The position numbers and the translations under genes were made by a program. A stretch of 47,788 bases of DNA from a virus, in the IMG/VR virus record IMGVR_UViG_3300014914_000009, positions 1 through 47,788 of that record. One strand, 5' to 3'. Shown here piece after piece: positions 21,070 through 42,706 of the stretch (positions are counted from its first letter, which is position 1; each line of letters begins with the position of its first letter). The notes below the pieces were generated by a model, which searched no databases, was not told the origin of the DNA, and was given only the letters and a program-made list of their open reading frames with translations.

Positions 21070-21397
21070 TTGCGAGCCTTTCAATCACGATTGCCGCCGC
21101 GCTCAGCGCGAACGGAAACGATATCAGTATCGTAGCTTTTGAAGCGATTAGATAAGCAACGGCGAGAGCTATACCGACCCATATTGAGAGACACCAGACG
21201 CATAGAAACGCCCTCGCCAATTCATGCTTACCATACCTCTCGCTAGATTCATCATAACGTATTCCGATGATGTAACGCAACCTCTCCAAAATGTAAAACG
21301 GTCCCTCCTCAGATACGAGGAGGGATGTTATCCGCCATGTTGCCAATGCCAAGATGAGAAATTCAGGATGAGATAGAACTGAGTCTGTGAATTGCAT
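21056..21397 (-). CDS. DUF1360-family membrane protein, 113 aa
   Basis: A 113-residue membrane protein with the DUF1360 signature: 'LATWRITSLLVSEEGPFYILERLR', then 'CVWCLSIWVGIALAVAYLI', followed by a third hydrophobic segment. Members occur in phages and Gram-positive bacteria beside structural or cargo genes; function unknown. It overlaps the large glycosyltransferase by 35 bases and the connector gene by 14, so it closes the glycosylation island. Confidence 0.82.
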   Translation of the reverse strand: MQFTDSVLSHPEFLILALATWRITSLLVSEEGPFYILERLRYIIGIRYDESSERYGKHELARAFLCVWCLSIWVGIALAVAYLIASKATILISFPFALSAAAIVIERLANGTR

Positions 21398-24377
21398 CTA
21401 CGATTCTCTCTGCCGTGACTGGGCCGATGCGGTCCAGCTTCTGCATGCCCTCTACGCCAAGTTCCAGGATGTCAGCCGCACTTTCTACACCCTGAGCGCG
21501 TAGTGCTTCAGCGACTTTCTTACCAACGCCAGGAAGCGCCTCAAGATCCATCTTTGACATATCTGGCGGCGTCATGGGTTTTGGCGGCGGCATCTGCGAC
21601 TCTGGAATGGTTTTTGGCTTACGCAAACTTACCGGCGCGGGTGCGCGTACAATTGCGCTTTTTGGCGGACGGATCGGACGTGCAACCTCAAAAAGATGCG
21701 GCTGCGCTTCAATGTCCGAGCGATGCACAAGGAATTCTTCGCCGCCTCCGCGCATGCCGTATTTTGTGTGAGTAGCGCCGCCAACTACCATGTGCTGGCC
21801 TCTGTTAGGATGCAAATAACGAACTTTCAGGTAATCATCATCTTTCATATCAACCTCACTTTTTGAGCGTGGGCCCGGAACTTGCTTTCTGACGGGCACA
21901 CGTGCCGGAGATTTTCCACCGCAACCACCTGGACATGGCATAAGTTTTTCCCTTTCATATTTAGATTGCATGTAAGCGGCCAATTCTTTGAAGTTTTCGC
22001 GGCCATATTCTCTCCGCGATCCACTGTAGAACCGATAAACAAGCAACTCATCTTCAAGCCTATGATAACACTTGCCTGCACGCGCCATGCGGATATGATA
22101 ATCCCAATCCTCCCAGGATTTCATTTCCTCATCGAATCCGCCGATCTCTTTATGCCATTCTGTCGGTATCAGAGCCGTAACGTTGCACCAGATGTAAGGC
22201 TTCGGAAATGTCGGCTGTACCTGCGCCCGCTGGCAATCATAATCATGTGCCCTGTAGCCTATCACGGTCTCGCCTGTCTTTTCATCCCGATGATATATCC
22301 GCTCCTGCAAGCGCGGATCAAGTTTTGATATATCCCCGATGAAAGCCTTACCAATGTAATCGGAGTATATGATTGACTCTTTGCTCTGCCATGTCTCCAC
22401 CATATCATGTAGCGCATGCGGAAACAGCCAATCATCAGCGTCCAAAAACAACAGGAACGGAGCACGTGCGATGTTAGCGCCAGCGTTTCGGGCAGCGCCA
22501 GCGCCAGCAGGCGCCTTTTCCATTTGCACTTCGCGGATGAAAGGAAACGTGGTTCTGATGTAATCTTTATCCTCGTTCTCTTCTTCGGGCGGCGTGTCCC
22601 AGACCACAACAGCCTCCCACCGGCGCAGTGTTTGCGCGTCAAGCGAGTCAAGCGCGTTGATGATGGCTCCTGCATGACCTGGGCCAACCGGTATCACTAC
22701 CGATACCATAGGTTCATCATATTCCCGTGCCGGATGCGACCAGCGTTTAGGCTTTGCGACAGACGGAAGCGGATGCAGCTTATCTTTTGCCCACGGATGC
22801 CAGGCAAGCCAATCCACCTCTTTGTAATCCTTGTTTCCGCTTACGATCCCGCTCTGCCATGAGTAGATAAACAACGGCTTGGGTGATGCCTTCCTTGCGC
22901 CATAACCATAGGCGCCCATACGCGTCCAGAATTCGGCATCTTCAGAACCAGCCCCATGCGGAGCGTACCGCTGCCGAAATCCGCCAAGCCTGCGCCAGGC
23001 TTCCACGCGGAACACGCAGCATGTAGGCACCTGATTTTTCCGTTTTAGCTGCGCCTCAAAGTTGTACTCACCAGGCCATTCGGAATTGCCCTCTGAGCCG
23101 TCCGGCTTTATCCAGTGCAACCCGGTATAGGCAATACCAAGCGTCGGATCATTCTCAAGCTCACGTATGCAGAAGTCGGCGAATTGCGGTTCTATCGCAT
23201 CATCTGCGTCCAGACAACAAACATACTTGTAGCCAAGTTCATCTGCTCGTTTGATGCCGCGATTGCGAGCATGCGCCACGCCTGCATTTGGCTGATGGAT
23301 ATACTCTACCCGGTCATCAAGCGCCAGGATCTCCTGCATCCTCTCACTCGTGTTGTCGGTTGATCCGTCATCAACAACGATGACCTTTTTTACGTGCTCA
23401 GACGTTTGCGCAAGCGCTGATTTAACGGCCCGGCCTACTCTTTCAGCATGATTATAAGTCGGTATAATGATGGCAGTATCAGGATCTGGCGGTATAAGCA
23501 CGCGCTGATAGATACCGGCAACTTTTTCGCATGCGGCTTCCCACGTCCAGCGCTTCGCCATTTCACGCGCATTATCGCCAAGGATTCTCCGGTAGCGATA
23601 GCAGTAATCAAGCCCTTCTGCCAGATCGTCGTAATTTCCGGGCTCTGCCAGGTATCCGTTTACGCCATGCTCGATTAGCGTGACATTGCCGCCATTACGC
23701 CAGCCAAGCGTAGGCACTCCAGACGCCATCGCTTCCAGTACGCCAATGCCAAAAGTCTCTTTCGTCGTGCTGAGATAGACGCCCGCGCTCATGATAAGGC
23801 GCTTCATTTCATCATGCGGAAGTATGCCCTGCGGATGGACGTTATCCATCTCCTGGCTGGTCAGCGTCGTTATAAACTTGCGGTTCGGAAACCGCTTTGC
23901 AAGCTCTATCATAGGCGCGGGATCGCATACGTCTACCGCCCTGTTTTTATTCCATAGCACGTATTGGTCATTATTGGCATATTGCTGCCACGCTTCCCAG
24001 TCAATACCGTGACCCACAACGTCCGGCTTGAAGCGAAAGTCTCGCATGATCGTTTCAGCGACCCACTCGCTTGGAACAGTCACAGCGCGAGCGTGCCGAA
24101 TGGACTGTACAACGCTTTTATTTGTGTACCACTCCCAGGCCGCGCATTGGTAATCCGCACTCCAATAAAATCCGTGCACGTGAGCGACATCGGTATCACC
24201 GTCATATGTTCCAGCATGCACCGCCAGGAGATCAAAATCGGTGCGCTTTGTTTCCCGCGGAACCAGATCGATGCCGTAATCAGGCAGATGCTTGAAATAC
24301 GCCTCCAGCACGCGCTTGATGCCCGATTCTTCGGATTTCATCTCTGTGATGTGGGGAACCATGCGGACTCGAATCAT
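21363..24377 (-). CDS. Multi-domain glycosyltransferase (GT4-GT2-GT2) with C-terminal virion-like/HhH tail, 1004 aa
   Basis: A fusion protein. Residues 1-295 are a GT-B glycosyltransferase of the GT4 type, with the E-x7-E motif region ETFGIGVLEAMASG at 207-220. Residues 301-545 are a GT2 domain (IIIPTYNH, VVDDGST 334-340, LDADDA 389-394). Residues 557-810 are a second GT2 (VSVVIPVGPG, LDADDW 645-650). A CPGGCGG knuckle (815-821) follows, then a small beta domain (844-898), a Pro-rich link and a helix-hairpin-helix pair (about 943-1000, LEALPGVGKKVAEAL). The last 160 residues look like small phage head-tail proteins, not enzymes. It probably builds a glycan on a virion protein; acceptor unknown. 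Confidence 0.88.
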   Translation of the reverse strand: MIRVRMVPHITEMKSEESGIKRVLEAYFKHLPDYGIDLVPRETKRTDFDLLAVHAGTYDGDTDVAHVHGFYWSADYQCAAWEWYTNKSVVQSIRHARAVTVPSEWVAETIMRDFRFKPDVVGHGIDWEAWQQYANNDQYVLWNKNRAVDVCDPAPMIELAKRFPNRKFITTLTSQEMDNVHPQGILPHDEMKRLIMSAGVYLSTTKETFGIGVLEAMASGVPTLGWRNGGNVTLIEHGVNGYLAEPGNYDDLAEGLDYCYRYRRILGDNAREMAKRWTWEAACEKVAGIYQRVLIPPDPDTAIIIPTYNHAERVGRAVKSALAQTSEHVKKVIVVDDGSTDNTSERMQEILALDDRVEYIHQPNAGVAHARNRGIKRADELGYKYVCCLDADDAIEPQFADFCIRELENDPTLGIAYTGLHWIKPDGSEGNSEWPGEYNFEAQLKRKNQVPTCCVFRVEAWRRLGGFRQRYAPHGAGSEDAEFWTRMGAYGYGARKASPKPLFIYSWQSGIVSGNKDYKEVDWLAWHPWAKDKLHPLPSVAKPKRWSHPAREYDEPMVSVVIPVGPGHAGAIINALDSLDAQTLRRWEAVVVWDTPPEEENEDKDYIRTTFPFIREVQMEKAPAGAGAARNAGANIARAPFLLFLDADDWLFPHALHDMVETWQSKESIIYSDYIGKAFIGDISKLDPRLQERIYHRDEKTGETVIGYRAHDYDCQRAQVQPTFPKPYIWCNVTALIPTEWHKEIGGFDEEMKSWEDWDYHIRMARAGKCYHRLEDELLVYRFYSGSRREYGRENFKELAAYMQSKYEREKLMPCPGGCGGKSPARVPVRKQVPGPRSKSEVDMKDDDYLKVRYLHPNRGQHMVVGGATHTKYGMRGGGEEFLVHRSDIEAQPHLFEVARPIRPPKSAIVRAPAPVSLRKPKTIPESQMPPPKPMTPPDMSKMDLEALPGVGKKVAEALRAQGVESAADILELGVEGMQKLDRIGPVTAERIVDAIHRLSSISS

Positions 24378-30268: not shown

Positions 30269-30395
30269 CTTGGTTCACCACCACTGTTTCTTTTGTTATT
30301 GCGTCCATTTATCGCCCAGTGAAGAGCACAACTTCCGACAACTCCATCTTAGCATAAAAGTGGGTTGAAATGCAAGAGTAAATCGTCAGAATGAG

Positions 30396-30467
30396 AAAAG
30401 CCCCCATCCAGGGAGCTTTTGCGTTTGCGCTCCGGCGACTGGCGGAGGCGAGTGTGACCCCGCCTCC
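30396..30467 (-). terminator. Terminator after the major capsid gene, with second hairpin
   Basis: AAAAGC-x-CCC pairs with GGG-x-GCTTTT around a 5-base loop (30396-30420), giving a leftward stem followed by TTTT. A GC-rich stem (GGAGGCG/CGCCTCC, 30444-30467) lies between it and the capsid stop codon. Together they separate capsid and glycosylation transcripts. The remaining 30269-30395 region holds no gene that I can support; I did not find a convincing promoter in it. Confidence 0.75.
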
Positions 30468-30504
30468 AACCTTACCGCCGCTGCGAAGTAGGTTATGGTC
30501 AGTC

Positions 30505-31953
30505 TTACAGCCAGACCGCGTAAACCGATTCGTCCTCGCGGATACTTACTCCACCGTCCTCGAAGTAAGGACCGCCGGGGTACACGCCGCGAAGATGCTG
30601 AAGCGGTACGTACTTGACCTGATCGATGCGCCCGGCAAGTTGCGGCGCACGCAGAACCACCCGCTGCTCAGATTTCACACTGAGCTTATAGCACCACTTG
30701 ACCTTCTCGACCGCCCAGGAATACATCCCGTTATCGGTCCAGAAGTTTTCGGTGCCGCGCAGAAGAGCCGTATCGGCATCGGCCAGCTTATAATCCACAT
30801 ACTCCAGATAGCAAGTGCGCAGACCAGCGGCCCGAAGCGGCAGGAAGAAGATGCTAGAAGCATATTCACCCGGCAGAAGTTCTCCGTTGTTGATGTTGTT
30901 GTGCTCATAGATCCCAACATCGGTCGCCACTGGATAGCGTCGGCCATTGATGTCGATGTACATTCCCGTGCGCATCTTATCGCGCTCGGAAACATAGCGG
31001 AAACCATCGATGTTGACGCGTGCGTTGCTGTCATTCATGAAGCCCGCACATCGATTGGTATTGTAGGCGCAAGGCCATACCTCGCTCAACACCTGCCACA
31101 TCTCTGGGCGGCAAACAAAAAGCCAATCGACGGGCAACAGGCCCATGCGATCCGCGTTGTTGTAGAGATACCACTCAAGCATGGATACATACTCTACGAT
31201 GTCGCGACCGGTCCCGCCAAGCTCATCATAGCCGAAGGTCTTGACATCCGAGTCCATCGCTGGACAGGCTGTGTTGGAAAGAGCATCGACTTGTCCGGTT
31301 GCAACCTGATTCGCCAGGCCGGGCATTTCCTTATAGCCGCCGCCTGGGTTGTTGTTTGCCGGCGATCCGTTCCACATCTGGTAGCTGTAGGAGCTTTCCA
31401 GATTGACGGCAGCCGTAACCATCTCGGCTTTTGTCACCGTGCGAAGCAGATCGGCCTGTGTGATGCCATCAGGCGAGAACCCGGTTTCACCGATCAGCTC
31501 GCCATAGAGCACGAGATCATCGAAATCGCCGCGGTTCTTGCGAAGCATCACTTTGTCCATCTCGATGGTCTGTGTATCGCGCGCCACACGGCCATACTGT
31601 GCCGTCAGCAAACAGCCCTTGAGATAACCTTGCGGATTGTCGGCACACGGGGTTGCGGCCTCATCACCGGTCGTGGCCGTGAAGCCAGTAATCGACGGGA
31701 AGAATGGTGTTTGTGCGACGCTGGGAATGCGGTCCAAAATAGCACCGATTCCGTGCGGGCGCATGTGCGCGGTAACTACCTCGCGCTCAACGGATGCACT
31801 GCCAAAGATTGAGCCGTTGCCATGGATCTCGGTATAGGTGCCGAAATTGGCGGGCGTCTTGGTGTGCATTTCTTTCGTTGCCAGCTTCTCCAGGATCGCA
31901 TCCTGGCGAGATTGATTGGCAACGAGCTGTTTCAAAAGCTCATTTTCACTCAT
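30505..31953 (-). CDS. Major capsid protein, 482 aa
   Basis: A 482-residue protein in the major capsid position, directly after the protease/scaffold gene. The first ~35 residues are a short coiled coil (MSENELLKQLVANQSRQDAILEKL), then capsid-like sequence ('REVVTAHMRPHGIGAILDRIPSV') continuing through 'LFVCRPEMWQVLSEVWP' and 'GIYEHNNINNGELLPGEYASSIFFLPL'. It is probably of the HK97 fold, with the separate protease supporting maturation. I recognise the class from position and pattern and not from a specific close relative. A terminator follows it. Confidence 0.8.
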   Translation of the reverse strand: MSENELLKQLVANQSRQDAILEKLATKEMHTKTPANFGTYTEIHGNGSIFGSASVEREVVTAHMRPHGIGAILDRIPSVAQTPFFPSITGFTATTGDEAATPCADNPQGYLKGCLLTAQYGRVARDTQTIEMDKVMLRKNRGDFDDLVLYGELIGETGFSPDGITQADLLRTVTKAEMVTAAVNLESSYSYQMWNGSPANNNPGGGYKEMPGLANQVATGQVDALSNTACPAMDSDVKTFGYDELGGTGRDIVEYVSMLEWYLYNNADRMGLLPVDWLFVCRPEMWQVLSEVWPCAYNTNRCAGFMNDSNARVNIDGFRYVSERDKMRTGMYIDINGRRYPVATDVGIYEHNNINNGELLPGEYASSIFFLPLRAAGLRTCYLEYVDYKLADADTALLRGTENFWTDNGMYSWAVEKVKWCYKLSVKSEQRVVLRAPQLAGRIDQVKYVPLQHLRGVYPGGPYFEDGGVSIREDESVYAVWL

Positions 31954-34879: not shown

Positions 34880-36736
34880 TTATCCTCCGGTCATTCCAGG
34901 CGGTCTGCCGGGCCATGCGTTTTCCGTCGTCACCTCAAAATGACACTTGCAGTTATAGCCGTGGCACGCCAGATTCGGATGCTGCGGCCTGATGTCATAC
35001 TTCGCCCAGATCGAAGCGCGGTACACCCGCCCGGAATAGTTCAGGCAGTCAATGCAATTATGAATGAGAATGCCATTTGCAAAAAACTCTGGCAAATCAT
35101 CAATTTCCAAATTGTAAACTGCTGTTCCATTTGTAAAATAATGATTTAGTGCTATAATGGGAGTGTGGTGAAATGGAACAATACTGCTATGACGATTAAA
35201 CAATTTACTTGTCAATTCTGCGGAAAGTCTTTTGAACGCAATGTTTATCCTTCTTATCCATTTCGCCGTTTTTGTTCGCCAGCTTGCAGGAACAAAGCCA
35301 GAAAGCTCAAGCCAATCCCATGTCCTATTTGCGGAAATTTGTTTAAGCCTGACGTTGTTGATACTGGTGGCGTTAGGCGCAAGTTTTGTTCGGTTACCTG
35401 TGCCAATGTGGCGCGTTCCAGATCCAGCAAATATCACCCGACGACTATATCTCAAGATACGATAGATCAGATTGTTTATCTCTACAAAACGCATACCGCC
35501 AAAGAGATTTCCGTAATAGTCGGACGGCACATCAACAGTGTTCGCATTATCCTTCAGAAACACGCGGAGCGCCTTTCTCCTGATGTCGCTAAAGAAAGAC
35601 AGAAAATTGGTGCCAGGAATTATATGCTTCTTCATAATCCCATGAAAACCAAAGAGGGAATTGACGCTGTTCAAAAGTGGCGAGAAAAACATCCTGAAAT
35701 TGTTATCCGCAACGCCATTAATGCTTCCAGAAGCAATAGAAGAGATAACCCCAGCGGTCTTGAATTGAAGCTGCATTCTATTCTCAACGATTTTGGGGTT
35801 TCTTTCAAGGCCAACGTAATCATTAAACCAAGATTCATAGTTGATATTCTTATTGCAGATAATTTCATCATCGAGGCCGATGGCGACTATTGGCATGGAC
35901 ATCCCAGATTTGCGCCATTTACTGATAGGCAACTTGCGCAGCAAAAACGTGATCGCGCTCGCAATAACTATCTTCAAAGCAGGGATTATATTGTTGAAAG
36001 AATATGGGAAAGTGATATGACTGCGGACACAGTTGCCAATATCCTGACTAAGCATAATATCATCTAGACGCAAGTACCGCGCCTCGACCCATCCTCGTCC
36101 CGTCAATACCAAATGATCCTCTGTCATTTTAACGCTATCGCCTTTATGCTTCAATTCGACCATTCTGCCACTATAGCCATGCTTAAATGTTTCTGTCACC
36201 TTTCTGAAGCCCGCACGAGTCAATACCCTGTCACCAACAATTACCTCTTCAATCGGAATCTCTCCACGGTCCGTCAATATTATTGTTCCGGCCACTACAC
36301 AATGCTCCGCGCGTCCCAAAACCCATTTCAGCTTCTGGTCACTGCAAGCCATCCGCTGCGCCAGGTTGCGCACAGCGTCAGTCCTGTTTTCCCACACCTT
36401 GCCGCGCTTGAGCGCGTTTGTGATCGTGGGCGCATTTTTGCCACCCGCCTCGGATCGTTCTTTCAGCTTCAAAATCGCTTCGCCAAAGTTGAGTAGATAT
36501 CCAAAGTCGTTTTGAATCTCTTTGTCCAGCGCAAGCGACTCTTCCAGCGATCTCTCTCCAGTCAAAATTCCACACCTGGATTCGCCCTCGCGCCATGCCA
36601 CTTCATAATCGCGCAATATGGCAGTCGTCATGGTATCGACAAAACCAATCAGATCGAGATGCCCTTTCCATAAGCCACGTATCGAAGCACGCACGCTGCG
36701 CCCAAAGTCATAACTTGCATCTTTCTGATATGCCAT
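34880..36736 (-). CDS. Phage head morphogenesis protein interrupted by an intein, 618 aa precursor
   Basis: A 618-residue precursor. Residues 1-145 and 561-618 together make a 203-residue minor head protein of the kind encoded next to portals. The C-terminal extein starts CIDCLNYSGRVYRAS and includes HPNLACHGYNCKCHFEV, as in Mu F-like head morphogenesis proteins. Between them lies a 415-residue intein inserted before Cys561, within an HC-x2-C motif of the mature protein. Splicing would be needed to rebuild the metal-like Cys cluster. The start overlaps the portal stop. An opposite-strand endonuclease gene lies inside the intein. Confidence 0.87.
   Translation of the reverse strand: MAYQKDASYDFGRSVRASIRGLWKGHLDLIGFVDTMTTAILRDYEVAWREGESRCGILTGERSLEESLALDKEIQNDFGYLLNFGEAILKLKERSEAGGKNAPTITNALKRGKVWENRTDAVRNLAQRMACSDQKLKWVLGRAEHCVVAGTIILTDRGEIPIEEVIVGDRVLTRAGFRKVTETFKHGYSGRMVELKHKGDSVKMTEDHLVLTGRGWVEARYLRLDDIMLSQDIGNCVRSHITFPYSFNNIIPALKIVIASAITFLLRKLPISKWRKSGMSMPIVAIGLDDEIICNKNINYESWFNDYVGLERNPKIVENRMQLQFKTAGVISSIASGSINGVADNNFRMFFSPLLNSVNSLFGFHGIMKKHIIPGTNFLSFFSDIRRKALRVFLKDNANTVDVPSDYYGNLFGGMRFVEINNLIYRILRYSRRVIFAGSGTRHIGTGNRTKLAPNATSINNVRLKQISANRTWDWLELSGFVPASWRTKTAKWIRRINIAFKRLSAELTSKLFNRHSSIVPFHHTPIIALNHYFTNGTAVYNLEIDDLPEFFANGILIHNCIDCLNYSGRVYRASIWAKYDIRPQHPNLACHGYNCKCHFEVTTENAWPGRPPGMTGG
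35131..35158 (+). promoter_or_regulatory. Predicted promoter for the antisense endonuclease gene
   Basis: TTGTAA (35131-35136), a 16-base spacer and a perfect TATAAT (35153-35158) point towards the endonuclease gene, opposite to the surrounding structural operon. It lies inside the coding sequence of the intein C-terminal part. Confidence 0.7.
35189..36067 (+). CDS. Vsr/EDxHD-like homing endonuclease, antisense inside the intein, 292 aa
   Basis: A 292-residue endonuclease on the strand opposite the intein. Two zinc-ribbon-like units lie at the N-terminus (C8/C11 with C29/C33, and C45/C48 with C67/C71). An HTH-like region follows (about 85-125, ISQDTIDQIVYLYKTHTAKEISVI). The C-terminal nuclease domain is Vsr/PD-(D/E)xK-like: NPSGLELKLHSIL (187-199), RFIVDIL with Asp219, IIEADGDYWHGH with Glu229, Asp231 and His236, and a final R-x-W. 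This matches the EDxHD homing endonucleases related to I-Bth0305I. It would cut intein-less alleles. The ATG at 35189 has no clear Shine-Dalgarno; an in-frame GTG at 35165 is the alternative. Confidence 0.85.
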   Translation: MTIKQFTCQFCGKSFERNVYPSYPFRRFCSPACRNKARKLKPIPCPICGNLFKPDVVDTGGVRRKFCSVTCANVARSRSSKYHPTTISQDTIDQIVYLYKTHTAKEISVIVGRHINSVRIILQKHAERLSPDVAKERQKIGARNYMLLHNPMKTKEGIDAVQKWREKHPEIVIRNAINASRSNRRDNPSGLELKLHSILNDFGVSFKANVIIKPRFIVDILIADNFIIEADGDYWHGHPRFAPFTDRQLAQQKRDRARNNYLQSRDYIVERIWESDMTADTVANILTKHNII

Positions 36737-38376
36737 TACGCCTCCACAGTTAGTGGCTCGTTCTCGTTTTCTTCGGCCTCCGACTGTTCGTCATCGCCGG
36801 TTGTCTCATCGCCCTCTTCTGGCTCTTCCTCTTGCATCTGCTCTTCAATCTGCTCGCCTTTGTAATCGCTCTTGAGTTTGCTCAGCGCAGCGATGGATTC
36901 TTGCAGCACTTTCTTGACTGTCGGCCGCGGCCGGTTGGCAAGCTGCTTCATCAGCACTGCCCGCTGCTCGTCAATCGCCTGGATCATCGTTTCGGCATCG
37001 TTAACGTCTACGTTCGTCGGGTCTGGAACGCCCAGGTTGAGATAGATCCGATAGTCCGGATTATAGAACAGTGTCAGGATGTCGGTACCGTCCTGTAAAC
37101 GTCCGTCGTCCAGCTCAAGCCGGATGAATTGCGCCTCCGTGATCTCGCCTGCCTCAAGCATGTCCTCACGCATAGTGCGCTCATCAATCGCGCCGGAGTT
37201 GTAGTTGATAACGCGCCCTTCGCCACGGATCTTGCGGATCTCTGCAACCTGCCGATCCTGCGCGTCATCCTGGAAGTCAAATACGACCTTCACCGATGAA
37301 GGCACGACTTTCTGGTTGAGTATCTGTTCCGTCTGTGTCAGGATCTCGCCGATGGCCTTGCCGCGCGCCTTGAGATGCGAAATAAGCGCATCCGCCTTTG
37401 TAGCGCCCACGCTCATGGCAGGCCATAACTCGCGAGCATCAACTCCGAAAGCAAGCGCCACCGCCGCCATGCCCAGCGTCATCGAGTCTTTTTCGTCGAA
37501 TCCGTCCGGTATTCCAGCCAGATCAGTAAGCTCAAGCGATGCCTCTTTGATATTGCGATCACCGATCAGCGCCAGCTTCGAGAACCGGTCAAGATTCTGG
37601 TTGTCCATGGACTCGTTGACAAGCGCCAGGGCAGCCTGCACATCCTCAGGATCCAGACCGCCGGTTGTGGTCAAAATGCCACGCATCGGACGTGAGCCTA
37701 ATTTTTCTTGTTTATAAGTCATGATGTCCAGGAAGTTCTGCGCGATGTTGAGGCAGCGGCTGATTGCACAAAAGCCGACGCCATTCAATTCGGCGTCCGG
37801 GCTTGGCATCTGCGACAGGTAAAAGCAACGTGTGTAGTGCAGCTTATGCCGTCCAGTACGTGGATCTTCGTAGATGACCGGAAATTCGGCATTGCCCGTG
37901 CGCGTACACCGACCCGAGTCAAGATGGGCGATGCCGAGCGGCCTACCGATATAAGGTCCTGATGGATCCCCAGGCGCTATGATCTCGCCGAACGCGCCAT
38001 TATCTGTAGTAAGTAAATCCTGAATGAACGGCGAGTAGAACCTCGACCAGCCGCCGCCAAACTCTGAGCCATCACGCAGCATGGCGAATGTTTCATCTGC
38101 AATCCGCTGATAGCTTGCTATGTTGCGATCACGCGGCTCCACCCTGAATGGAATCGTTGTCATACGCGATGACAGCGCATACACAGCGCCTGCGATATGA
38201 TCGACCTTCTTCCAGAAGTTGCGCAGATCCTGATCGCGACGAGGCGACCAGTATGGCGCGATCAAACCCTGGCCCTGCACCAGCCACATCAATATGGGTA
38301 TAGACGACTCTGGACTTTTTTTCACGCGTGATTGTATCGTTGCATCAATCACTGCTTTATTATCTGGTTCAGCCAT
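36736..38376 (-). CDS. Portal protein, 546 aa
   Basis: A 546-residue portal protein following the large terminase. Portal-like features are 'WKKVDHIAGAVYALSSRMTTIPFRV' near the N-terminus, 'IQDLLTTDNGAFGEIIAPGDPSGPYIGRPLGIAHLDSGRC' and the central helix region 'GFCAISRCLNIAQNFLDIMTYKQEKLGSRPMRGIL'. Its C-terminus ends in a very acidic tail (Glu/Asp-rich, residues about 505-546), common in portals. It forms the dodecameric DNA channel. It overlaps the head morphogenesis start by one base. About 140 bases precede it without a gene. Confidence 0.87.
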   Translation of the reverse strand: MAEPDNKAVIDATIQSRVKKSPESSIPILMWLVQGQGLIAPYWSPRRDQDLRNFWKKVDHIAGAVYALSSRMTTIPFRVEPRDRNIASYQRIADETFAMLRDGSEFGGGWSRFYSPFIQDLLTTDNGAFGEIIAPGDPSGPYIGRPLGIAHLDSGRCTRTGNAEFPVIYEDPRTGRHKLHYTRCFYLSQMPSPDAELNGVGFCAISRCLNIAQNFLDIMTYKQEKLGSRPMRGILTTTGGLDPEDVQAALALVNESMDNQNLDRFSKLALIGDRNIKEASLELTDLAGIPDGFDEKDSMTLGMAAVALAFGVDARELWPAMSVGATKADALISHLKARGKAIGEILTQTEQILNQKVVPSSVKVVFDFQDDAQDRQVAEIRKIRGEGRVINYNSGAIDERTMREDMLEAGEITEAQFIRLELDDGRLQDGTDILTLFYNPDYRIYLNLGVPDPTNVDVNDAETMIQAIDEQRAVLMKQLANRPRPTVKKVLQESIAALSKLKSDYKGEQIEEQMQEEEPEEGDETTGDDEQSEAEENENEPLTVEA

Positions 38377-38518: not shown

Positions 38519-40018
38519 CTATCCGCCTACCCGCATCACGCGAGCGCGATACGATGGCGCATAAGCCAGCATACAAGCATCGGCCAAATCTGGCGACACG
38601 CCCAAGTCTTTTTTCATCTTGTCCTTCGGCTCAATTATGATTTTGCCGTTTGATCTATATGTGTACTTTATAGCGCTCAACTCACCGAGCAAACGCTCAT
38701 AAACCGTTTCGCTCAGACGTGTTAGATCAATGGCATCATCATAGTCCTCATGAGTTGGCTGTTCTACCTTGCCGCTCTGGATCTCCCACGACTTTTTGAA
38801 TCTGTCTCGTAAGGTGAAGTACAATTCAGCCCTCAAATTCTGGAAGTGTTCGCTATCCCGAGCCGCATTTCCGACATTGATGCCAACTACTGGAAATTTC
38901 TGTTCTCTCAATCTATCCACAACTCCAGATCCTAGTCCTATCTCGTCTACGTTTGCCCGGATGCCTGCTGCCTTCACCTTGCCAGTCGTTTGCATGATGT
39001 CGTTTCCGTTCCACCAAGTCGCTTTGATTGCACATGAACCATCACGTACAAACATGGCTGAATCATCCTCGCCGAAGCGCGCCACGTCCACACCGTTAGA
39101 GGGTTTGCCTGGTGGTTTAATTTCTAACCCCCTCGCCGCCTCGATCCACGCCAGCGGAATAAGCGTGCCCTCTTCCTGGTCAGGGAAGTTGCCCAGCACA
39201 CGCGCCTGGTATATCGGCGAATCAACGCCCCACTGCCGCTTGCGATCATCAGCCCACGATTGACTTACGCGCCCGGCAGCTATAGCCTCCTCAAGTGTGA
39301 CATGCCGGGCCCACCAATCCTCATAACCATTCTTTTTTGTGTGGATCTTCCAGAACGTGCCGCCCACGCCGCCCGGAGTCGAGATCGAAAGCCAATAGCA
39401 GTCTCCTGACGCGAAGGCGCCTTCTGCTGCATCCCAGGTTGGCGTTACAATAGCCTTTGACTCATCAAAGATGTACAGGAGATTATCGCCGTGCGCGCCC
39501 TCGATGAAATCCGAATTCTTTGATGCTACCGGAAACGCCTCGCACGTTTGGCCGATGCGTAACGACTGCGTGTACATCTCCGGCACCTGGCCGCCTATCC
39601 GCGCCCATGCAGCCCAATCCACGCGGCCATTCCATACCCGGATCTCAGGCCACAGATAATGCGTAAGCTGACGCCATGCAGATGCCGTTGTTACAACTTT
39701 CGTATTGACTGGTCGCGTGGCGATGAAGTGAAGCGTGACTAAAGCCGCAAGGCACGTCTTGCCCAGACCATGCGGACCGCGTGCGCTTGCGCGTCTTTTC
39801 TCATATAGCTTTGTTCCGATTTCAGCCTGGTAATCAGCAAGACCTTCTCCGCGCGTGAAATTAACAAAGTCATCTACCCAGCGCGTGAAGCCGCTCGGAT
39901 CTTCCGGCGATGCGCGATAGTCAAGCCAACCAGTACGATTAAGTTGGGCTCGGCGAAGCTTCTCAACTTGAAGAGATCGGTATGCCTGCGGACTCAAACA
40001 ATTCTTGAGCAAGCTCAC
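38519..40018 (-). CDS. Terminase large subunit, 499 aa
   Basis: The packaging motor ATPase/nuclease. Walker A is RGPHGLGKTCLA near residue 80. A Walker B region LLYIFDESKAI (DE pair) comes near residue 180. The coupling region is SISTPGGVGG. A C-terminal RNase H-like nuclease domain begins NGVDVARFGEDDSAM and continues to DYDDAIDLTRLSE. The predicted start is GTG at 40018, overlapping the small subunit by 56 bases; GAGGAACTGGGAA precedes it. Length is normal. Confidence 0.93.
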   Translation of the reverse strand: MSLLKNCLSPQAYRSLQVEKLRRAQLNRTGWLDYRASPEDPSGFTRWVDDFVNFTRGEGLADYQAEIGTKLYEKRRASARGPHGLGKTCLAALVTLHFIATRPVNTKVVTTASAWRQLTHYLWPEIRVWNGRVDWAAWARIGGQVPEMYTQSLRIGQTCEAFPVASKNSDFIEGAHGDNLLYIFDESKAIVTPTWDAAEGAFASGDCYWLSISTPGGVGGTFWKIHTKKNGYEDWWARHVTLEEAIAAGRVSQSWADDRKRQWGVDSPIYQARVLGNFPDQEEGTLIPLAWIEAARGLEIKPPGKPSNGVDVARFGEDDSAMFVRDGSCAIKATWWNGNDIMQTTGKVKAAGIRANVDEIGLGSGVVDRLREQKFPVVGINVGNAARDSEHFQNLRAELYFTLRDRFKKSWEIQSGKVEQPTHEDYDDAIDLTRLSETVYERLLGELSAIKYTYRSNGKIIIEPKDKMKKDLGVSPDLADACMLAYAPSYRARVMRVGG

Positions 40019-41731: not shown

Positions 41732-42706
41732 ATGAGCGAAAACGCAGAGACTAAATCCATCGCTTTGTCACATTTCCAAACGCCGCACGACATCAGCCAG
41801 CTAAAAACCCTGTCGATCCTGCTGGCACAATCCGGCTATTTCCAGGATGTCAAAAGCGAGGCGCAGGCGCTAACAAAAGTGGTCGCTGGCGCAGAGATTG
41901 GACTGGGCCCTGTAACTTCCCTTACAGCCATCTATATCGTCGAGGGCAAACCATCCTACAGCTCGAACCTGGTCGCCGCACAGATCAAGCGACATCCACG
42001 CTATGATTATCGCATCAAGGCGCTGGACGATGATGGATGCACAATTCAGTTTTTCCAGGAAGGCAAAATGATCGGCGAGGCCGGCTTTAGCAAGGCCGAC
42101 GCTCAACGTGCCGGGTTGCTCAATAAATTCAACTGGAAAACGTACCCGCGAAACATGTACTTTTCGCGCGCACTCACTAACGGCGCACGCTGGTATTGCC
42201 CGGACGTGTTCATCGCGCCAGTCTACACGCCGGAAGAGTTGGACCCTGACATCCAACTCGATGAATCTGGCGAACCAATCGAGATTGTGGATGCCGAAGT
42301 GCGCGAGGCTCCGACGCCCAAGCCACAGCCGAAACCCAAATCGGCAAAATCCGAACGTCCAATGGCACCAGAAGCCCTGCGTGATTATCTCATTGACAAG
42401 GTAGCGCCGCGGCACAACGATGCCGTAGCCAGCACAAAGCAACGCGGGCTGTGTGTCGGGATGCTGAACGCATGCTTTGCCGGTGATGAGAATAGTGACA
42501 ACAAACGACACAGTGTCCTGCAATATCTGTTTGGAGAAACCAGCCTGAATGATGTTGAAGATGCCGGGGTGCTGGCGCTCCTGGACTGGCTGAATCCCGA
42601 GAAGGACAGCGGCGGAGCCTACACACCAGATCCGATGGCCGCGAAAGAGGCGCTCGCCATCTATCGCGCTCGCCTGGTCGAACTTGGGCAAACCGAATTG
42701 CTGTAA
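41732..42706 (+). CDS. recT: RecT-family single-strand annealing recombinase, 324 aa
   Basis: A RecT-like annealing protein. The family signature runs through residues 30-165: SGYFQDVKSEAQALTKVVAGAEIGLGP, then KPSYSSNLVAAQIKRHPRYDYRI, 'FSKADAQRAGLLNKFNWKTYPRNMYFSRALTNGARWYCPDVF' and PVYTPEEL. After a Pro/Lys-rich linker (TPKPQPKPKSAK, about 190-203) the C-terminal 110 residues are helical and of unknown role. It pairs single strands during phage recombination. No matching 5'-3' exonuclease lies beside it. Good ribosome binding site (AGGAGAAAATC). Confidence 0.9.
   Translation: MSENAETKSIALSHFQTPHDISQLKTLSILLAQSGYFQDVKSEAQALTKVVAGAEIGLGPVTSLTAIYIVEGKPSYSSNLVAAQIKRHPRYDYRIKALDDDGCTIQFFQEGKMIGEAGFSKADAQRAGLLNKFNWKTYPRNMYFSRALTNGARWYCPDVFIAPVYTPEELDPDIQLDESGEPIEIVDAEVREAPTPKPQPKPKSAKSERPMAPEALRDYLIDKVAPRHNDAVASTKQRGLCVGMLNACFAGDENSDNKRHSVLQYLFGETSLNDVEDAGVLALLDWLNPEKDSGGAYTPDPMAAKEALAIYRARLVELGQTELL

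Follow-up and report, generated by a model that had tools for sequence, protein, structure and literature searches.

A predicted EDxHD homing endonuclease gene lies antisense, codon against codon, within a predicted phage head-gene intein

Inteins are thought to have their homing endonuclease built into the same polypeptide as a domain, or to have it beside a split intein. The EDxHD endonucleases were reportedly first described with split inteins, in work from 2009 by Dassa (cited in PMC12350094) that is said to have termed these loci 'fractured genes'. Here we analyzed the virus record IMGVR_UViG_3300014914_000009 over its whole stretch of 47,788 nucleotides (nt), referred to below as the window. 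On its minus strand a continuous intein interrupts a predicted minor-head protein gene, and a predicted EDxHD (Vsr-like) endonuclease gene fills the middle of that intein on the plus strand.

Class 1 inteins with in-frame endonucleases resemble this locus in having a Hint domain split by the endonuclease between block B and block F, in the residues C1, TxxH, HN and C+1, and in insertion into a conserved motif of an essential gene. In contrast to those inteins, the endonuclease here has a start of its own on the other strand, and two genes share DNA instead of forming one polypeptide. With the EDxHD/Vsr endonucleases, such as I-Bth0305I and those of split-intein fractured genes, the locus shares nuclease family, fold, zinc-finger DNA-binding parts and association with inteins, whereas this intein is unbroken and the gene is nested within it, antisense and with its codons aligned. 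Homing genes antisense to their host are known from group I introns of nuclear ribosomal DNA, where I-DsqI is expressed and cuts the intron-less site (PMC9548176). In both cases the homing gene runs antisense to its host within a self-splicing element, but an intron imposes no frame constraint, while the host frame of an intein must stay open, which brings with it a codon ban and a fixed register. HNH insertions of the ShiLan type are hidden in phage methylases whose frame stays open through the overlapping homing gene (PMC11855218); they differ in lying on the same strand in another frame, in having no self-splicing domains and in nuclease type. Phage EDxHD genes also occur in group I and group II introns (PMC12350094, PMC3943268). 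A full-text literature search that paired inteins with homing genes in antisense, opposite-strand or overlapping positions found no antisense endonuclease within an intein; most subscription papers were outside its scope, and priority is unproven.

The intein comprises residues 146-560 of a 618-residue open reading frame (ORF) at 34880..36736 on the minus strand, that is, 415 residues at 35057-36301. Its N-terminal splicing region with blocks A-B (36082..36301, minus strand) matched the NCBIfam model intein_Nterm (TIGR01445; 3.4e-5, 24.7 bits against a cut-off of 24.5), and its C-terminal splicing region with blocks F-G (35057..35119, minus strand) matched intein_Cterm (TIGR01443; 2e-4, 21.5 bits against a cut-off of 15.6). 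Both regions were placed by family models and alignment, and Pfam Intein_splicing matched the 618-residue protein at 1.2e-7. The set of splicing residues is complete, with C1, the TxxH motif (T60-H63), the terminal H414-N415 pair and C+1; C1 is invariant across 13 aligned cases of the family described below, and T60 and H63 of block B are invariant in alignment A4. In an AlphaFold model built from 13 sense sequences, residues 1-88 and 383-415 form a Hint fold with a predicted local distance difference test (pLDDT) score of mostly 80-94 (80-94 over blocks A-B and 88-90 over blocks F-G), and residues 130-382 score below 50 and are predicted to be disordered. The nearest solved folds found by Foldseek were inteins, with gp41-1 at the top (7e-6). 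The domain search gave no family match for the sense-strand middle, so no in-frame endonuclease domain was detected. The N-terminal region, TxxH, C-terminal HN/C+1 and Hint fold are those of a class 1 intein, for which protein splicing is predicted.

The opposite strand of this middle carries the endonuclease gene (35189..36067, plus strand), encoding 292 residues from its ATG with zinc fingers, a helical linker and a Vsr-like nuclease domain containing EADGDYWH. Family searches matched the product to zf-FCS, DUF559 and Vsr. A search of the PDB with the single sequence returned noise only, and a profile of 13 sequences was needed to reach 3r3p (I-Bth0305I, 2e-14) and Vsr (1.8e-8). The nuclease domain was modeled confidently (pLDDT ~90 or more), and the nearest folds by Foldseek were 1vsr (Vsr, 7e-4) and 3r3p (9e-4). 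The EADGxYWH motif is invariant across the aligned endonucleases, and the window protein keeps all invariant nuclease positions (E192, D219, E229, D231 and H236 in the 292-residue numbering). By family and fold the plus-strand product appears to be an EDxHD (Vsr-like) homing endonuclease with predicted cleavage activity. Its ATG precedes blocks F/G and its stop, at 36067, lies ~15 nt beyond block B. The first-pass annotation, made from the letters alone, had described this anatomy of intact splicing blocks at both ends, no endonuclease on the intein's own strand and an antisense zinc-finger/EDxHD gene fitted between them, and the searches bear it out. Two of its details stand in part. The start it placed at ATG 35189 is the likelier one, but the full ORF (35165-36067) opens at GTG 35165 and would give 300 residues. 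The promoter it assigned to the endonuclease corresponds to a plus-strand site at 35131..35158 (TTGTAA-16-TATAAT with an extended -10 TG), which lies within the C-terminal coding part of the intein, 30 bp ahead of the ATG. This site is joint best of nine in the region (3.1 expected) and the sole one with TG, but it is a consensus match only.

To gather relatives, viral contigs were scanned first with the endonuclease as query and next with a degenerate DNA pattern for EADGxYWH, which yielded well over a hundred EDxHD genes. Hidden Markov models (HMMs) were built for the N and C blocks of the intein and run on both strands around every nuclease motif. Intein blocks lay opposite the endonuclease strand in 32 locus records, representing 14 distinct cases: the window, L159, L020, L165, L045, L164, L227, L027, L110, L174, L183, L038, L208 and L261. 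These span very different phages, with GC contents of 32-70%. The L165 endonuclease is identical in L175, L193 and L226 from different samples, and L027 is also present in the Streptomyces alboflavus genome as L051; a scan of 395 genomes of this host's family returned only the known prophage. The sense frame is open in all 32 records; it extends through blocks A to G and shares its codon register with the endonuclease (L221, a truncated duplicate record, has the N block only), and the block HMMs revealed no off-register or broken antisense case among all loci with the nuclease motif. Ordinary in-frame EDxHD inteins were found in ~21 other records (for example L010, L021, L196 and L219); both arrangements exist. 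The ordinary inteins of L010 and L021 lie in phage head genes, and one 1277-residue frame in L010 seems to contain two in-frame EDxHD inteins.

In every distinct case but one, the insertion point of the intein is the first cysteine of a conserved C-x-x-C motif in a Mu-F-like minor head protein. Uninterrupted Mu-F homologues read through this site, for example HATV-3 gp13 (DDRV-CPFCDRLDG) and phage D6E. The remaining case, L208 (2086-3336), lies in another extein context (HAPGEVPDEKGE/CKLPVRQPDG), and the antisense arrangement thus occurs at more than one insertion site.

Codons of the intein ORF and of the endonuclease lie exactly opposite one another, the low coordinates of both being congruent to 2 mod 3. 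The complements of TTA, CTA and TCA are stop codons, and a linker that must remain stop-free therefore bars the endonuclease from using these three. As the first-pass annotation had claimed for both the register and the missing codons, none of the three occurs in the window gene among its 15 Leu and 18 Ser codons, against 4.7 expected from the window's own genes (P ~0.006, and 0.002-0.009 under other codon models). The comparison was extended to 13 of the 14 distinct cases with expectations from each locus's own codon usage, and the total was zero observed against 61 expected (log10 P ~ -36). The force of the codon argument comes from the window and from L165 (GC 32%; 0 against 24 expected, P ~1e-19), L159 (0 against 7.3, P 3e-4) and L020 (0 against 5.4, P 3e-3). 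As a control, 91 free-standing relatives used these codons 852 times against 724 expected. Shared ancestry is insufficient to account for the absence, since Leu and Ser codons turn over between relatives: the codon differs at 9 of 10 conserved Leu/Ser sites between the window and L159 and at 12 of 23 between L027 and L110, and dozens of Leu/Ser positions have been gained or lost between relatives, in each case without a banned codon appearing. The antisense open frame is maintained by selection.

The choice of register follows from the genetic code. In the codon-aligned register the only codons that create a host stop are Leu and Ser codons with synonyms available, and every protein sequence therefore has a stop-free spelling; in either of the remaining antisense registers, neighboring residues can make a stop inevitable under every choice of codons. 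For the window protein the number of unavoidable host stops is 0 in the codon-aligned register and at least 5-6 in the other two, and 10 of 13 endonucleases would meet unavoidable stops in both other antisense registers and all 13 in at least one. The codon-against-codon register would thus be kept because it is the sole antisense register in which any protein can avoid host stops. That the arrangement recurs, that its register is constant and that the genetic code explains this register all go beyond the first-pass annotation.

Substitution patterns, together with folding, identify the plus strand as the coding one in the middle and the minus strand as the coding one at the ends. When L027 is compared with L110, the differences by endonuclease codon position number 67/58/110 in the insert, and those by sense codon position number 16/7/27 and 2/2/12 in the two intein blocks, third positions being the most frequent in each. 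The endonucleases are 71% identical over this insert, and the mirrored sense translations 58%.

A single origin of all antisense endonucleases was rejected by an approximately unbiased (AU) test on the nuclease-domain tree (p = 0.007), in which they are not grouped and five changes are needed; the tree has only ~110 columns, its branches are long, and the group was chosen once a first tree had been made. The antisense endonucleases probably do not form a single clade, and as a lead the tree suggests several independent invasions that settled in the same register. Extending this, we tentatively propose, at somewhat short of an even chance, that inteins have been invaded backward repeatedly and that only the codon-aligned register survives since synonymous codons keep the host open, which would make these loci a testable natural class of dual-coding genes, fully nested in antisense and barred from three codons.

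Outside inteins, EDxHD genes that are free-standing and run antisense to the head operon were also seen, between the minor-head and prohead-protease genes (L217, L270 and L260; also L225 and L072). That of L217 overlaps the end of the minor-head gene and that of L270 stops just short of the protease gene. L217, L270 and L260 contain no TTA, CTA or TCA (expected 4.3, 7.7 and 3.6, respectively) and have a long open antisense frame, and L225 contains two against 8.8 expected. Perhaps antisense homing genes of phage head operons preserve an open frame on the host strand outside inteins too, as in L217, L270 and L260, possibly to let ribosomes travel along the operon transcript.

We consider it very probable that the window element is a mobile intein that has its homing endonuclease gene on the strand opposite its own linker and not as an in-frame domain, a reading that draws on the observed anatomy, recurrence, codon ban, strand constraint and uninterrupted homologues. 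The minor-head gene would be transcribed with the head operon and translated right through the intein, whose Hint ends would fold and be removed by protein splicing while ~290 residues of anti-endonuclease peptide are carried as a disordered loop. The plus strand would be transcribed separately from the promoter inside the intein to yield the endonuclease, which would cut intein-free minor-head copies at the conserved insertion site, and repair would copy the whole cassette in. Some points weigh against this. Splicing, cleavage, homing and promoter use are predictions by analogy with the families, and promoter-like sites in other family members are mostly weaker than that of the window. For the minor-head lineage of the window itself, no relative lacking the intein was found, leaving homing here without presence/absence support: searches of viral contigs with the whole 618-residue protein or the spliced extein, and a blastn search of the 618-residue gene against a phage collection, each gave zero relatives. 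In addition, single-locus P values in the GC-rich cases (65-70%) are only ~0.05-0.2, and there the open frame alone is weak.

Among the alternatives, it is unlikely that the anatomy is right but the intein or the endonuclease is already dead, as in a degenerating element. That no empty allele of the window lineage was found would fit such decay, but the splicing residues and invariant nuclease positions are intact and neither strand has a frameshift. A functionally split, 'fractured' intein, with halves made separately and joined by trans-splicing around a free-standing endonuclease gene, is distinctly unlikely despite the reported first description of EDxHD endonucleases with split inteins. 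A split intein has no need of an open frame, which would then be incidental, yet the frame is open in 14/14 cases and 61 expected banned codons are missing, 24 of them at GC 32%; a separate start for the C-part was not identified. The broken sense frame that the first-pass annotation named as the mark of a true split intein was looked for and is absent in 32/32 records, so these are not true split inteins.

There is very little chance that the open antisense frame arose as a side effect of GC content or biased codon use and that intein and endonuclease coincide by accident. Many cases are GC-rich with the unremarkable P values given above, but the AT-rich and mid-GC cases are decisive, the free-standing relatives show no avoidance, and conserved intein ends flank the gene every time; the AT-rich case and the free-standing control led us to reject chance. 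We hold it to be similarly improbable that the insert is removed as RNA and the intein frame is not translated through. The known occurrence of phage EDxHD genes in introns would favor this, and the first-pass annotation had raised splicing at the RNA level as a challenge to its own account, but the region had no Rfam match on either strand up to an expectation value of 1, for which the intron was rejected; moreover, the element ends are protein-splicing blocks conserved as protein, and an intron needs no open frame. Least probable of all, with almost no chance, is that the sense-strand middle is a functional domain and the plus-strand ORF spurious: the sense motif MPVVAVxL looks conserved across cases but is the exact mirror of EADGDYWH, substitutions track the plus-strand codon frame, the product of the plus strand has I-Bth0305I and Vsr as matches, and disorder is predicted for the sense middle. 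A novel sense-strand domain was rejected on the mirror motif and the disorder.

The 618-residue ORF consists of an N-extein of 145 codons (36302..36736), the intein and a C-extein that begins with C+1 (CIDCLNYSGR..., 34883..35056), as delimited by ORF and splice-block analysis on the minus strand; the spliced product calculated from it has 203 residues. Immediately upstream, overlapping it by one base, is the portal gene (36736..38376, minus strand; Pfam Phage_portal, 1.4e-6), preceded by that of the terminase large subunit TerL (38519..40018, minus strand; PHROG terL, 1.9e-31), so that TerL, portal and the 618-residue ORF are consecutive. The window extein has no Pfam Phage_Mu_F match, whereas that of L165 matches Phage_Mu_F at 3e-10; from its place beside portal and TerL and an insertion site matching that of L165, we infer that the window extein is a phage minor-head protein (Mu F-like/SPP1 gp7-like). 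Elsewhere the window encodes a RecT-like single-strand annealing protein (41732-42706, plus strand) and a 1004-residue protein with several glycosyltransferase matches (21363-24377, minus strand). Two further ORFs of 473 and 482 residues (30391-31812, plus strand, and 30505-31953, minus strand) are mutually antisense and codon-aligned; neither matched in a PHROG search, and the pair is probably a codon-bias mirror.

In this arrangement mobility gene and splicing protein are uncoupled although the one remains inside the other, and expression of the mobility gene can be controlled differently. One stretch of DNA must satisfy two genes simultaneously, a capsid-gene intein and a homing enzyme. Because MPVVAVxL in the intein middles is explained as the mirror of the nuclease active site, such inteins could be misread as carriers of a novel domain. 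With ~300 codons free of TTA, CTA and TCA in unrelated phages of 32%-70% GC, the family offers an unusually clean test of antisense dual coding, and the absence of the banned codons while Leu and Ser codons turn over freely makes selection on overlapping frames directly measurable.
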